Source of the DNA: Paucimonas lemoignei
Lineage (GTDB): Bacteria > Pseudomonadota > Gammaproteobacteria > Pseudomonadales > Pseudomonadaceae
Reading direction: 5' to 3'
Length of the DNA stretch: 64,000 nt
NCBI GenBank assembly: GCA_900475325.1
Contig: LS483371.1
Location: forward strand, 2,232,001 to 2,296,000
Numbering within the stretch: the first letter of the stretch is position 1; every line of letters begins with the position of its first letter. This document shows positions 5,810-34,806 of this stretch, in pieces. The notes under the pieces are model-generated. The model was not told where the DNA came from and did not search any database. It worked only from the letters and a program-made list of their open reading frames with translations. Both the position numbers and the translations under genes were made by a program.

Positions 5810-6073
5810 GGTACATCTCCTGAAAAAATATCCGGCGCATCGCTGCGTCCTTGAGCTGGGGGGTGGCTACAGCGTCAGAATAATGTCGTTCCGGTGCAGT
5901 TGCAGTCGTCTTTGCAAGCCGCAAGCCAGTGGGCGTACCGGTCGGCGCTTTCTCTGAAACCGTTGTTCAAGCGCCACACAACAATGCGAATGAAGCTAAC
6001 AGACTGGATGAGAGGAGCCAGAGTTCCCGCTGTCTACATCCTCAACCTGCCCACCTTGACCATCAGGATTTCC

Positions 6074-7093
6074 ATGACCCATCCTCGAATCGGCTTTGCC
6101 TGCCAGTATCGGCACCCTGTTCGCGACCTGTCGATCAGCGCGCTCAAGCTTATCGAAACCCCGTTCAACCCCCGCACCACCACGCTGCGCTGGATGGACA
6201 GCGTTGCCGCTAACGTGGCCCGCGAAAAGCTGGTGGAAGTGGTTACCCATAACCTGGCGGCGCAATTGCAGCTGTTGGCGTACGTGGCCGAGCTGCCGCC
6301 TACCTTGCGCATGCTGCGGCTGAGCAGCGACTTGCTGCCGTTTTACAGCCATCCCAAAGTGCGCCACGTTTATCAGGACCCGGCCATCGTGCGGCAACTC
6401 CATGAAGGTTTTGCGGCGATTGGCGCATTGGCGCGTGCGCAGGACATCCGCCTGTCGTTTCACCCCGGCCAGTACTGCGTGCTGGGCTCGGACCGGCCCG
6501 AGGTGGTTGAAAACAGCCTGGCTGAGTTCGAATACCACGCTGACATGATCAGGATGATGGGCTACGGGGTCCGCTTTCAGGATTTCAAATGCAACCTGCA
6601 CATCGCCGGGCGCCTGGGTGGGGAGGGCATCCGCGCCCTCTGGCCGCGCTTGTCCGAAGTGGCTCGAAACTGCATCACCTTCGAAAACGATGAGAAGACC
6701 TACGGCGTTGATGATTGCCTGGAGTTGGCGGATCTGGCGCCGGTGGTGCTTGATATCCACCATTGCTGGATCCACGAGAACGACTACATCGCGCCGGATT
6801 CGCCCCGGGTCCAACGGATTCTTGACAGCTGGCGAGGCGTGCGGCCTGCCATGCATTACTCCCAGCCGCCGGAGCACTTGCAGGAACTGGGCTTTGGCGC
6901 TGAGCAGAAGCTGGAAATGGACGCGTTGCTGGCCGTCGTCAACAAGCGCGACCTCTACGCTCACAGCCTGCAAATGTGGAATCACTGGACCAACCGCTAT
7001 GCGCTGCAGTTTCTCGACCGGTTCGACATCATGTTCGAAGCCAAGGACAAGAACCTCGCGACCCTGGCGTTCTACCACGAATTTCTGGCGTGA
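6074..7093 (+). CDS. uvsE: UV damage endonuclease UvsE/UVDE family
   Basis: A 339-residue TIM-barrel endonuclease of the UVDE family, which nicks DNA 5' to UV photoproducts and starts an alternative excision repair route. Family motifs are clear: RIGFACQYRHP at the N-terminus, RLSFHPGQYCVLGS, CNLHIAGRLGGEG, CITFENDEKTYG and VVLDIHHCWIHEND, which supply the His, Glu and Asp ligands of the metal cluster. The start at ATG 6074 was chosen because the protein proper begins there and AGGA lies seven bases upstream. An upstream in-frame extension to 5894 has no family similarity. It converges with the MocR gene, only 12 bases away. Confidence 0.85.
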   Translation: MTHPRIGFACQYRHPVRDLSISALKLIETPFNPRTTTLRWMDSVAANVAREKLVEVVTHNLAAQLQLLAYVAELPPTLRMLRLSSDLLPFYSHPKVRHVYQDPAIVRQLHEGFAAIGALARAQDIRLSFHPGQYCVLGSDRPEVVENSLAEFEYHADMIRMMGYGVRFQDFKCNLHIAGRLGGEGIRALWPRLSEVARNCITFENDEKTYGVDDCLELADLAPVVLDIHHCWIHENDYIAPDSPRVQRILDSWRGVRPAMHYSQPPEHLQELGFGAEQKLEMDALLAVVNKRDLYAHSLQMWNHWTNRYALQFLDRFDIMFEAKDKNLATLAFYHEFLA

Positions 7094-30783: not shown

Positions 30784-30962
30784 TGCGAAATCCTTGCGTT
30801 AAACGGTGAGGCGCCCGGGAGAAAGCGTAGGCCCAGGCTGAGGACATGGCTTGTTAGGGGCCTGCCCGCTGCGCTAGTTCCACAAAGTAACCGGATATTT
30901 CGCAGTAATTAAACGATTCAGCTACACGAGATGCCGACAATGGCTATCTTTCCGGCCTGAGC

Positions 30963-31650
30963 TCACCGAGGTGACGAGGGCTGCGAAGGCGGTGTATCTG
31001 ACCGCCGCTATTCGCAGCCTTCGGCATCTCCTACGAACGACCACCGACCCCGTGGGAGCGAATTCATCCGCGAAGAGGCCCTTACATCCGACGTTCATCT
31101 ATCATCTGCACCGCAGCCTTCGCGAATGAATTCGCTCCCACAGGGGCATGCGTTCTTTCAGGTTCACCCCGGTCCTGGAGCTGACCGAGGTTACGAGGGC
31201 TGCGAAGGCGGTGTATCTGACCGCCGCTGTTCGCAGCCTTCGGCAGCTCCTACGAACGACCACCGATCCCGTGGGAGCGAATTCATTCGCGAAGAGGCCC
31301 TTACATCCGACGTTCATCTATCATCTGCACCCCAGCCTTCGCGAATGAATTCGCTCCCACAGGGGCATGCGTTCTTTCAGGTTCACCCCGGTCCTGGAGC
31401 TGACCGAGGTTACGAGGGCTGCGAAGGCGGTGTATCTGACCGCCGCTGGTCGCAGCCTTCTGCAGCTCCTACAAACGACCACCGACCCCGTGGGAGCGAA
31501 TTCATTCGCGAAGAGGCCCTTACATCCGACGTTCATCTATCATCTGCACCGCAGCCTTCGCGAATGAATTCGCTCCCACAGGGGCATGCGTTCTTTCAGG
31601 TTCACCCGGTCCTGGAGATGACCGAGGTTACGAGGGCTGCGAAAGCGGTT
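30963..31650. repeat. Tandem array of about 219-bp units built from two REP types
   Basis: The 960 bases between 30784 and 31743 hold no convincing gene. From about 30963 a unit of 219 bases is repeated three times and begins a fourth: CTGCGAAGGCGGTGTATCTG recurs at 30980, 31199 and 31418, with a diverged copy at 31636. Each unit contains one GTAGGAGCTGCCGAAGG-type palindrome (here as GGCTGCGAAGG...CAGCCTTCGGCAG) and one GTGGGAGCGAATTCATTCGC pair. Copies are nearly identical, so the expansion is recent. Open frames on both strands here are translations of the repeat and are not genes. Upstream, 30784-30962 has no visible feature beyond the leader of the transporter. Confidence 0.85.
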
Positions 31651-31743: not shown

Positions 31744-32715
31744 TTAGACGTGCCCGAACAGCTCCTGCACAAACTTGACCCGTTGCTCCGGCGTTTCAAT
31801 ATCGCCGTTGAGCGCCAGCTGCTCCAGTCGCGCTTCCACCGCCTGGGTGCGATGGGTCAGGCCGCAGTCGTTGGCAATCTGGATGTTCAGGCCGGGGCGG
31901 GCGTTGAGCTCCAGGATCAGCGGCCCTTGTTCCTGATCCAGCACCATGTCCACACCGATATAGCCCAGGCCACACAATTCGTAGCATTCGGCAGCGAGCT
32001 TCATGAAGCCGTCCCAGTTGGGCAGCTGCACGCCGTCTACGGCGTTGGTGGTGTCCGGGTGTTTGGTGATGATGCTGTTCAGCCAGGTGCCGCGCAGGGT
32101 GATGCCGGTGGCGAGGTCGACGCCGACGCCGATGGCGCCCTGGTGCAGGTTGGCCTTGCCGCCAGACTGCCGGGTCGGCAGGCGCAGCATGGCCATCACC
32201 GGGTAGCCCATCAGCACGATCACGCGAATATCCGGCACGCCTTCGTAGCTGATGCTTTTGAAGATCTGGTCAGGCGTGACGCGGTACTCGATCAGCGCCC
32301 GATCCCGGTGTCCGCCCAGGGAATAGAGGCCGGTGAGAATGCTCGACACCTGATGCTCGATTTCCGAGTGGCTGACGATGCGCCCCGAGATGGTCCGGTA
32401 ACGGTTTTCGAAACGGTCGGCGATCACCAGAATGCCGTCACCACCGGCACCCTGGGCGGGTTTGATGACGAAGTCACTGCGGCCACCGATGATCTCGTCG
32501 AGCTTGTCGATCTGCTTTTCGGTGGAGATCACCCCGTACATCTCGGGCACATTGATGCCCGCCGCGATAGCCCGCTCCTTGGTGATGATCTTGTCGTCGA
32601 CAATCGGATACAGGCTGCGCTTGTTGTACTTGAGCACGTAATCGGCGTTACGTCGGTTGATGCCCATGATTCCCCGGGCTTCCAGGGCCTTCCAGGTCTT
32701 CCACAGGCCGATCAT
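31744..32715 (-). CDS. Alpha-L-glutamate ligase-like ATP-grasp protein
   Basis: A 323-residue cytosolic protein of the ATP-grasp superfamily (RimK/alpha-L-glutamate ligase-like group). ATP-grasp features include FVIKPAQGAGGDGILVI (nucleotide-binding lysine and Gly loop), RVIVLMGYPVMAMLRLPT, YIGVDMVLDQEQGPLILELNARPGLNIQIAN (metal-binding Glu/Asn). Such enzymes join an amino acid to a carboxylate through an acyl phosphate. Its ATG overlaps by four bases the stop of the membrane pseudo-transglutaminase, and a secreted retropepsin-like gene leads the operon. This trio is conserved in gamma-proteobacteria and has been predicted to modify a peptide or protein in the envelope; the substrate is unknown. 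Confidence 0.85.
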   Translation of the reverse strand: MIGLWKTWKALEARGIMGINRRNADYVLKYNKRSLYPIVDDKIITKERAIAAGINVPEMYGVISTEKQIDKLDEIIGGRSDFVIKPAQGAGGDGILVIADRFENRYRTISGRIVSHSEIEHQVSSILTGLYSLGGHRDRALIEYRVTPDQIFKSISYEGVPDIRVIVLMGYPVMAMLRLPTRQSGGKANLHQGAIGVGVDLATGITLRGTWLNSIITKHPDTTNAVDGVQLPNWDGFMKLAAECYELCGLGYIGVDMVLDQEQGPLILELNARPGLNIQIANDCGLTHRTQAVEARLEQLALNGDIETPEQRVKFVQELFGHV

Positions 32716-34265
32716 TTGGCTTCTTCTTGCTTGGCTTCATCCTTGAGGAAGGCCTTGAAGCGCACCAGTTCGGTCAGGCGGTAGCCACGGTAGCGACCCA
32801 TCGCCAGCATGAAGCCCACCAGAATCAGCAGCACTGCCGGGAAGGTGAAGACGAAGTAGATCAGCTCCGGCACGCTCATGATGATGTGCGCCAGCGAGGC
32901 CGCGAACAGCGTCCCGATGGCGACTTTCATGGCATGGCCGCCGCCGCGTTCTTCCCAGGTGATGGACAGGCGTTCGATGGTCATGGTCAGGATCACCATC
33001 GGGAACAGCGCCACGGAAAGCCCGCGTTCAAGCCCAAGCTTGTGGCTGAACAGACTGATGGCGGCGATCAGCACCACCACGAAGGTCAACACCACCGAGA
33101 GCCGGGGCAGCATCTGCAACTTCAGGTGCTCCAGATAGGAGCGCAGCGACAGGCCCAACGCGGTAATGACGGTAAACAGAATGATACCGAACCCCAGCTG
33201 GGTTTCCCGGAAGGCCAGGGCAATCAACACCGGGGTAAAGGTGCCCAGGGTCTGCAGGCCGATCAGGTTGCGCAGGATCAGAATCACCAGCACGCCGATC
33301 GGGATCATCACCATGATCATGAAGGTTTGCTGGGTTTGCAGGGGCAGGCCGTACAGCGAATATTCAAGGAAGTCCGCGTCAGTGCTGGCATCGGTCAATT
33401 TGGCCAGGCGAATCGCGTTCATTTCACTGTTATTGAGGCTGAAGGTCACCACCGGTTTTTTGCCGCCGTCGAGGGTCACCAGACTTTCGTCGCCGGTCCA
33501 CCACAGCAGGCGATCTTCAGGCAGGCCCTGTTCGCCGGTGTCCGGGTTGAAATACAACCAGTCCTTGCCATTGAAGCTGCGCAGCCAGAGTTCCGGGCTT
33601 TGCGGTTGGTCGGCCACCAGGCGAATGGTGTGGACCTTTTCCATGGGCACATGGGCGATGGACAGCAACAGCTCGGTGATCCGCGCCTTGTTGGAACTCG
33701 ACGGGTCGCCCGCCAACAGCAGCTTGACGTTGTTGTCGGAGAGGTTATTGACCCGTTTGATGGCTTCGGTGACGAAGGTTTCCACGTCCGCCGAGTGCTG
33801 GCGAATCGGTGCGAGCAACGCTTCGGCGGCCACTTTCTCGGGCCCTTCGACGACGATGCTGTCACGGAAGATCGGCCCTTTGGCCTTGAGCTTCTCGCCG
33901 CTGTAGCGCTTGGTCAGCACGAGGCGGTAATACAGCGTCTGGTTGCCGGTGGCGCGGCGTGCCGACCAGGTGACCTTGCGGTTGCCATCGACCCGATTGA
34001 CGCTGACCCCATAGTTATTGGAGATAAAGCTCTCGTTGAGGCTGATGTAGTCACGCGCCAGCGGTGGCACGAACATCTGCAGCTTCACCGAATCCTTATT
34101 GTTGTTGGCGACGAACTCGACCTTGGCGTCGATATTCCACAGATCGTCGGTTTCATCCTCGGTGACCGGGATGCCGAGCGCCAGAATCTGATAGGCCGTG
34201 ATTGCGATCCCCAGTGTCACCAGGACACCAATCAGGATTTTCAGATGCAACGTAAGAGAGCGCAT
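32712..34265 (-). CDS. Inactive transglutaminase fused to seven membrane helices
   Basis: A 517-residue inner-membrane protein. Helix 1 is MRSLTLHLKILIGVLVTLGIAITAYQ. A periplasmic region of about 220 residues follows, whose end (HTIRLVADQPQSPELWLRSFNGKDWLYFNP) has the transglutaminase-like fold without a catalytic Cys. Seven helices fill the C-terminal half (from FMIMVMIPIGVLVILILRNLIG). ATG 34265 was chosen because the hydrophobic start fits and the upstream gene stops at 34270. The protein lies between a secreted retropepsin-like protein and an ATP-grasp ligase in one coupled operon, so it is likely the membrane scaffold or channel of the system. Confidence 0.85.
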   Translation of the reverse strand: MRSLTLHLKILIGVLVTLGIAITAYQILALGIPVTEDETDDLWNIDAKVEFVANNNKDSVKLQMFVPPLARDYISLNESFISNNYGVSVNRVDGNRKVTWSARRATGNQTLYYRLVLTKRYSGEKLKAKGPIFRDSIVVEGPEKVAAEALLAPIRQHSADVETFVTEAIKRVNNLSDNNVKLLLAGDPSSSNKARITELLLSIAHVPMEKVHTIRLVADQPQSPELWLRSFNGKDWLYFNPDTGEQGLPEDRLLWWTGDESLVTLDGGKKPVVTFSLNNSEMNAIRLAKLTDASTDADFLEYSLYGLPLQTQQTFMIMVMIPIGVLVILILRNLIGLQTLGTFTPVLIALAFRETQLGFGIILFTVITALGLSLRSYLEHLKLQMLPRLSVVLTFVVVLIAAISLFSHKLGLERGLSVALFPMVILTMTIERLSITWEERGGGHAMKVAIGTLFAASLAHIIMSVPELIYFVFTFPAVLLILVGFMLAMGRYRGYRLTELVRFKAFLKDEAKQEEAK

Positions 34266-34269
34266 TGGG

Positions 34270-34806
34270 TTACTCGGTTCTTTGAGCGGTAATTGCACAG
34301 CCAGGCTTGCCCGCTGCGTACTTAAGGCTTGGATCGACCAGCGCATCAAAGCGTTTCAAGGCTTCGGAGCCGATCAAAAGCGGATATTGGAAAGCACTTC
34401 GGTCGGTCAAGTTCACTTCGATGGTGCGTAAAGATGCACCCATGCACACATCCAGGCTGATCACCGGGCGTGCGGTGTACTTTTTCTCGTCATCCGGGTC
34501 GCGATCATCAGCACGGCGCTTGATCTTGCTGACACGGGCCAGCGGCCGCTCGATGGGGTGCGCGTGGGCGTCATCAATCGCCAGATAAAACCGCACCCAG
34601 CTTTCGCCATTGCGCTTGAAGTGCTTGATGTCCCGCGCACTCAGCGACGCGGTCTTGGCCCCGGTGTCGAGCTTGGCTGCGACTTGCAGGTCAATGTCGT
34701 TGAGTTGCGCATATTCGTTGAGGCCGTACACCGTCTTTTCGGCAGCCATGCCCATCAGAGGCAGAAAAAGAAGGCAGAGCAGGGCGGGAAAGGCTTTGAG
34801 TGTCAT
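34270..34806 (-). CDS. Secreted RimK/LysX-associated retropepsin-like protein (putative ATP-dependent zinc protease family)
   Basis: A 178-residue protein from ATG 34806 (AGGA just upstream), with a signal peptide (LKAFPALLCLLFLPLMGMAA). The mature domain contains VAAKLDTGAKTASLSARD, an aspartic-protease-type DTGA motif, then VRFYLAIDD, RPVISLDVCMGASLRTIEVNL and YPLLIGSEAL (the second retropepsin-like strand). The family is named zinc protease in databases, but the fold is that of a single-lobe retropepsin that would dimerise. It is the first gene of a three-gene operon, five bases from the pseudo-transglutaminase. A longer start at 34833 is less likely. Confidence 0.82.
   Translation of the reverse strand: MTLKAFPALLCLLFLPLMGMAAEKTVYGLNEYAQLNDIDLQVAAKLDTGAKTASLSARDIKHFKRNGESWVRFYLAIDDAHAHPIERPLARVSKIKRRADDRDPDDEKKYTARPVISLDVCMGASLRTIEVNLTDRSAFQYPLLIGSEALKRFDALVDPSLKYAAGKPGCAITAQRTE

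Follow-up and report, generated by a model that had tools for sequence, protein, structure and literature searches.

The rloABC operon of Pseudomonas aeruginosa PA14 and Pseudomonas fluorescens (Lormand et al., mBio 2025; PMC12239564) is the closest described relative of the system considered here, an operon that lies in a 64,000-nucleotide stretch of Paucimonas lemoignei DNA (GenBank assembly GCA_900475325.1, contig LS483371.1, positions 2,232,001 to 2,296,000; hereafter the window) and possesses the same three gene families in the same order. According to the main text of that paper, P. aeruginosa carries three redundant secreted RloA proteases, which are required for growth at low salt, and RloA cleaves polyglutamate in vitro when 8 or 10 glutamates stand in a row, but not when there are 6 or fewer. 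The RloA variants R114A and R137A, in which cleavage was weakened most, did not restore low-salt growth. Moreover, deletion of rloB, of rloC or of both fully rescued the low-salt growth of cells without RloA and partly rescued their other phenotypes, and the phenotypes linked to rlo concern hypoosmotic growth, biofilm, antibiotic tolerance and cell shape. RloA of P. fluorescens has been crystallised, with dimers reported, and the mechanism of the system was left open by its authors.

The RimB-RimK system (PMC11957791, PMC7343187) also combines a retropepsin with an ATP-grasp ligase, and has been related to RpsF glutamylation and poly-alpha-glutamate. RimB has no signal peptide, unlike the RloA of the window, whose N-terminus is hydrophobic and signal-like by a heuristic. 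An RloB-like membrane partner is not described for RimB-RimK, and one locus of our survey (L066) carries RimB-RimK and RloB-RloC side by side. As well, an inactive transglutaminase gene was reported to affect membrane-vesicle output in Shewanella vesiculosa (PMC12096838), and insertions in PA1766-PA1768 were reported from a P. aeruginosa suppressor screen (PMC7314104).

The window operon is a standard, published rlo operon and is therefore already known, so that the original prediction, which had offered it as a system still lacking a described function, is outdated in this respect (PMC12239564). The new part, as judged from sequence comparison, appears to be a swap of hydrolases across the family. 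A literature search, outside which lay the amidoligase survey of Iyer et al. (2009) as the likeliest precedent, found no account of a Cys-bearing RloB or of AstE beside rlo. We hold it to be an evenly balanced question whether RloB and RloC make and present an acidic, probably glutamyl, chain in the envelope, which needs a periplasmic hydrolase of interchangeable fold. The direct basis of this reading is the RloA activity and the epistasis published for P. aeruginosa (PMC12239564), together with the linkage, the active sites and the hydrolase distribution observed here.

The three proteins of the window operon

All three genes lie on the minus strand in the order rloA-rloB-rloC. They had been predicted to be joined by a five-base gap and a four-base overlap; the coupling and the 4-base overlap of rloB and rloC are real, while the gap from the rloA stop to the rloB start is 4 bases long (CCCA, 34266..34269).

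The first gene, rloA1 (34270..34806, stop codon included; 178 aa), encodes a retropepsin-like aspartic peptidase of family PF05618, which scores 344.8 bits against the NCBIfam model NF052262 (cut-off 280) and only 79.4 bits against the RimB model. PDB entries 9g58 (289 bits) and 9g59 match it by sequence. The DTGA active-site motif of retropepsin-like peptidases (PF05618, clan AA) is present at residues 47-50 (34657..34668). Residues 1-22 (34741..34806), which end in MGMAA, form a likely signal peptide, and the N-terminus holds the hydrophobic stretch LLCLLFLPLMGM with a mean hydropathy of 2.49; by this heuristic, used in place of SignalP, the protein is likely secreted, which agrees with the periplasmic location first proposed for it.

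The second gene, rloB (32712..34265, 517 aa), encodes an inner-membrane protein with a pseudo-transglutaminase and a seven-transmembrane (7TM) domain, which scores 1055.8 bits against NCBIfam NF052267 (cut-off 900) and matches PF14400 and PF14402. It consists of an N-terminal membrane helix (residues 2-28, 34182..34262; AlphaFold2 model and hydropathy), a transglutaminase-fold domain (residues 40-283, 33417..34148) and the 7TM domain (residues 309-516, 32718..33341; PF14402 and AlphaFold2 model). The catalytic Cys-His-Asp triad is absent, its places being occupied by S190, E225 and N240 (33546..33698), and there is no cysteine anywhere in the protein, as expected of the membrane protein with a dead transglutaminase fold that had been proposed; a working cysteine transglutaminase in the window is thus ruled out. 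PF01841 (Transglut_core) gave no match to window RloB up to an E-value of 10. A single-sequence search for solved homologues reached an E-value of only 0.61 at best for window RloB, and found none up to 0.01 for the RloB of L083. In structure matching of the transglutaminase-fold domain, the best solved match is annotated as a putative cysteine protease (3isr), with TgpA, LapG and PeiW lower. Unlike such transglutaminase-like cysteine proteases, window RloB has no cysteine, and Cys-His forms were seen only in distant RloB relatives. Fold matches of the 7TM domain, to membrane subunits of RNF and NQR, were too weak to use.

The third gene, rloC (31744..32715, 323 aa), encodes a cytosolic RimK-related ATP-grasp ligase, which passes the cut-off of NCBIfam TIGR02291 (alpha-L-glutamate ligase-like; 575.2 bits, cut-off 314.2) and matches PF14397, plus weaker RimK-type models. 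Its predicted role as an ATP-grasp ligase is further borne out by the active site: among 141 aligned RloC proteins, K42, K46, K85, D162, R164, N189, H191, D256, E269 and N271 are identical wherever the residue is present (139 or 140 of 141 rows), and D256, E269 and N271 in 139 of the 139 rows that have the residue. The nucleotide- and metal-binding residues align with those of RimK (the L066 protein), and D256, E269 and N271 (31903..31950), which align with the GVD and ExN of RimK, are presumably the metal-binding part. The examination of catalytic residues that the original prediction had suggested found an intact site in RloC, a degenerate triad in RloB and the DTGA motif in RloA.

The window genome (a single contig of 5.92 Mb) possesses a single RloB and three retropepsin-like genes, namely RloA1, RloA2 (304.2 bits) and RimB (295 bits). 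Thus two RloA proteins that appear secreted accompany RimB, with no third found in this genome, whereas three Rlo proteases are reported in P. aeruginosa (PMC12239564).

Hydrolases beside RloB across the family

The survey comprised 144 distinct loci (147 minus 3 duplicates; L numbers, with genomes as G numbers), which came from a sample of 249 genomes of the host's phylum, a scan of genome contigs and samples of two other groups; the locus counts are not independent of one another. At the transglutaminase place of RloB, a Cys-His pair is present in 26 loci, 113 are Cys-less, and the remaining 5 lack the domain or have it cut off. The third triad place in the Cys-His loci is Asp in 21 and Cys in 5, and one intact Cys-His RloB matches PF01841 at an E-value of 1.6e-16. 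A search for the Cys motif returned 0 Cys-less rows, in agreement with the alignment classes.

RloB is Cys-less in all 89 loci that have RloA beside it. Among the 113 Cys-less loci, RloA lies directly upstream of rloB in these 89 (median gap 6 bases), an apparently secreted AstE/AspA-type hydrolase holds that position in 11, and neither is found upstream in 13, of which 3 are at contig ends. Neither RloA nor AstE adjoins rloB in any of the 26 Cys-His loci (23 informative, 3 at a contig end), one of which (L088) carries an M14 zinc carboxypeptidase directly upstream. Four gamma-proteobacterial loci are ordered A-B-C-AstE, and AstE also follows C in L204, a Cys-less, mid-contig locus without an upstream hydrolase. 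Of the 16 AstE proteins linked to the operon, 4 (L126, L099, L200 and L105) have a confirmed PF24827 match, and the others were assigned by our own model.

Genome-wide, any PF05618 gene was found in 8 of the 26 Cys-His genomes, and one with a signal-like N-terminus in a single genome (G262). Nine Cys-less genomes have a mid-contig locus without a linked hydrolase; 7 of them possess an unlinked AstE scoring 285-336 bits to the operon type, and 3 of these 7 (G193, G280 and G282) also hold an apparently secreted retropepsin elsewhere. G279 and G671 are Cys-less and have neither a linked hydrolase nor an operon-type AstE. The limit for the operon type, 280 bits, was set after a gap between 285.6 and 254.1 bits had been seen. 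In the control sets, AstE of at least 280 bits was found in none of 24 Cys-His genomes, in none of 20 genomes that lack RloB, and in 5 of 33 genomes with an adjacent RloA. The window genome has none either, which makes 5 of 34 when it is counted with the RloA-adjacent genomes.

A signal-like stretch, scored by a hydropathy heuristic whose results agree on the examined rows, if not cleanly, is present in all 16 linked (1.69-2.89) and all 7 unlinked (2.06-2.71) operon-type AstE proteins. Of five further AstE proteins above the limit, four score 1.92-2.66, while the fifth (L251, 1.41) is inseparable from the weaker matches, which reach up to 1.36. Among these weaker AstE relatives, those with a kept locus have no signal stretch except a distant 99-bit match (L279, 1.63), and many of them lie beside cytosolic RimB. 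This matching of compartments, with cytosolic AstE beside RimB-RimK and secreted AstE with RloB-RloC, is in our view the best hint that the two systems both work on glutamyl chains. Succinylglutamate and aspartoacylase are not mentioned in the main texts of PMC12239564 and PMC11957791.

A tree was built from RloC and the 7TM columns; L212, L228 and L229 were left out, and thinning at 72% identity reduced the 141 rows to 91. L094 aside, the Cys-His rows cluster in a single group. The Cys-less rows split into a branch with AstE and a large one with RloA, which together make up one side of a branch with a support of 66.8. L227 appears as a separate loss of the Cys. Only 2 independent pairs are found on the tree, so it shows which parts travel together and is not a replicated test; the hydrolase distribution thus rests on one or two independent losses and is a pattern, not statistical proof. 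Both points weigh against an exchange of hydrolases, and the small number of pairs, with the Cys-less rows essentially on one branch, favours another explanation, namely that the transglutaminase-type domain, where intact, acts as a transferase or a binder, not as a hydrolase, and that it is missing alongside RloA or AstE by mere coincidence of phylogeny. The Cys-His loci also carry a different envelope set, consisting of a tetratricopeptide-repeat (TPR) protein and a barrel-like protein, and the whole system may act differently there. However, two unrelated hydrolases with signal-like N-termini stand before rloB in two Cys-less branches, operon-type AstE occurs elsewhere in 7 of the 9 Cys-less genomes without a linked hydrolase vs none of the 24 Cys-His genomes, and the best match among solved structures carries the annotation of a putative cysteine protease. 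We therefore regard a coincidence as unlikely, and the exchange of hydrolases is the reading followed below.

The RloB-RloC pair and its possible product

RloB (PF14402) and RloC (TIGR02291) were found in the same 41 of the 249 genomes of the phylum sample, where RloC follows RloB in 41 of 41 and RloA lies directly upstream of RloB in 34 of 41, consistent with the conservation first claimed for the trio. Across all loci, RloC is directly downstream of RloB in 142 of 144, the exceptions being L229 (short contig) and L228 (divergent). The 7TM core and RloC persist without the transglutaminase domain in L066, L067 and L217, suggesting that the core pair is independent of that domain. The neighbourhood search proposed at the outset, examined for gene clusters shared by more than 8 loci, gave no constant extra partner beyond A, B and C in the gamma-proteobacterial loci. 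Besides A, B and C, these clusters are the TPR and AstE sets, together with a run of 11 loci in which the frames appear to overlap the RloC place. In the database proteins P0091 (786 aa) and P0209 (507 aa), RloB and RloC are fused in one chain; such fusions could stem from a frameshift where the two genes overlap, or be artefacts of the gene models.

The Cys-less domain is retained in 113 loci, and pseudo-enzyme domains often bind. RloB might accordingly be a sensor, whose pseudo-enzyme domain binds acidic peptides in the periplasm and switches RloC, with RloA tuning the ligand level. Such a role seems very improbable, since the 7TM core and RloC persist where the domain is missing, and since deletions of rloB and rloC were reported to rescue alike (PMC12239564).

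It is somewhat unlikely, in our estimate, that RloC, instead of making a free chain, attaches glutamate to a protein or to a precursor of the cell wall, which then reaches the envelope; there the RloA-type hydrolase would edit the modification, and RloB would serve as acceptor, scaffold or flippase. RimK, the nearest characterised relative of RloC, both modifies RpsF and makes free polyglutamate (PMC11957791), and the reported cell-shape and cell-wall-antibiotic phenotypes point to peptidoglycan (PMC12239564). Moreover, the PreATP-grasp domain of RimK (PF18030), which is present in the L066 RimK, is not listed for RloC at E-values up to 10, so the acceptor may differ from that of RimK. On the other hand, no candidate acceptor stood out among the recurrent neighbours, of which those in 4 to 8 loci look lineage-limited and were not checked singly. 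According to the main text of PMC12239564, the authors found no exported protein with at least eight glutamates, and a relaxed candidate, CprS, was uncleaved, although a modified protein is still compatible with this.

In the mechanism that we prefer, with an acidic chain and an interchangeable hydrolase, RloC would assemble an acidic amino-acid chain in the cytosol, driven by ATP, and the chain would most likely be oligo- or poly-alpha-glutamate. RloB would be the obligatory inner-membrane partner, which moves the chain to the periplasmic side or presents it there, and RloA would cut it in the periplasm. The uncut product of RloB and RloC may damage the envelope, above all at low osmolarity. 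A periplasmic hydrolase would then be a required third part, for which three folds may be equivalent. The probably ancestral one is a cysteine domain of transglutaminase type that is part of RloB itself, and another is a secreted metallo-hydrolase of the AstE/AspA (M14) type. The third, presumably used in the window, is the secreted retropepsin RloA, with the transglutaminase domain of RloB keeping its fold without catalysis. The original prediction of a ligase conjugate that is handled by the membrane protein and acted on by RloA in the periplasm is in keeping with the epistasis reported for P. aeruginosa and with the survey, while the product and the role of RloB in it stay at the level of inference.

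Other architectures and the meaning of the family

A TPR protein follows C in 18 of the 26 Cys-His loci vs 1 of the 113 Cys-less loci. This count leans towards the Cys-His group, since six loci of that group supplied the sequences for the TPR model. Of the 8 Cys-His loci that lack a TPR match, 2 stop less than 1.2 kb away from rloB. In several Cys-His loci, a secreted barrel-like protein stands after C and TPR, a label that rests on the signal-like N-terminus, the size and, in some, a C-terminal Phe, with no Pfam match above the cut-off. Five of the 6 loci from the Aquimarina phylum (L095, L096, L224, L226 and L227, not L225) encode after C, with no TPR gene, a related secreted protein some 375 residues long. 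The four Cys-His loci of TPR-type architecture in the phylum sample are of Mariprofundaceae type, which we take to belong to the class Zetaproteobacteria, and two of them have an RloB identical to Ghiorsea and Mariprofundaceae proteins. In Mariprofundaceae-type genomes, a small membrane protein is encoded upstream of the Cys-His rloB (L062 8011-8565, L063 4427-4990 and L064 7516-8073); that of L062 has a PepSY-TM match below the Pfam cut-off (E 6e-4).

In L066 (4271-10922), a single run of genes encodes FtsK, RimB, RimK, a barrel-like protein, a short RloB that lacks the transglutaminase domain, and RloC. In L150, an MscS mechanosensitive channel gene (6046-6891) lies directly upstream of a Cys-less rloB. 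Probable tandem retropepsin-like domains were seen in two frames with two separate PF05618 matches each (G182:C1:2469211-2470668, 656 aa; G066:C1:703488-704948, 667 aa), and frames of similar size in G098 and G243 have one listed match each.

Cyanophycin, a non-ribosomal polymer of amino acids, has an ATP-grasp enzyme for its synthesis and a dedicated peptidase for its cleavage. A 7TM relative of RloB adjoins such a pair in L228 (4328-9400), where cyanophycinase (241.6 bits, over the cut-off) and cyanophycin-synthetase-like (431 bits, under the cut-off) genes follow it; no such pair was found at the window. Unlike window RloB, this relative has no transglutaminase domain and is fused to a D-Ala-D-Ala-ligase-like domain.

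Just 3' of rloC, the window contains a tandem array (30952-31649) with 3.2 copies of a 219-base unit at 96% match, and a sigma-70 promoter scan gave 1 site vs 0.9 expected. Elsewhere in the genome, RloA2 is convergent to opgH, 156 bases apart (L281 682-5920; G000:C1 ~543-548 kb). This opgH encodes MdoH, the glucosyltransferase of osmoregulated periplasmic glucans (1505 bits), and opgG upstream of it matches PF04349 (MdoG). Seven other retropepsin neighbourhoods, each 9 to 14.5 kb long, gave no match to opgG or opgH, so the pairing was seen only in the window genome; an RloA2-like protein (at least 55% identity) is present in 6 of the 7 and a YihG gene in 5.

In P. aeruginosa, growth at low salt, biofilm, cell shape and the tolerance of cell-wall antibiotics are under the control of the rlo operon (PMC12239564). 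If one ligase-membrane pair is indeed served by three unrelated hydrolases, an amide product that can be cleaved must be present in the periplasm. Only tentatively, and with more doubt than the mechanism itself, we suggest that RloB-RloC may be the core of a widespread envelope machine for an acidic amino-acid polymer, a counterpart of the osmoregulated periplasmic glucans, whose hydrolase has been replaced between unrelated folds. This machine may be linked to the outer membrane by TPR and barrel-like proteins in Mariprofundaceae and several other lineages, and by the barrel-like protein alone in relatives of Aquimarina, and the pseudo-transglutaminase of Pseudomonas may be a fossil of its first hydrolase. 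If true, the hydrolase swap would explain the dead enzyme domain of RloB and reveal a new envelope polymer.

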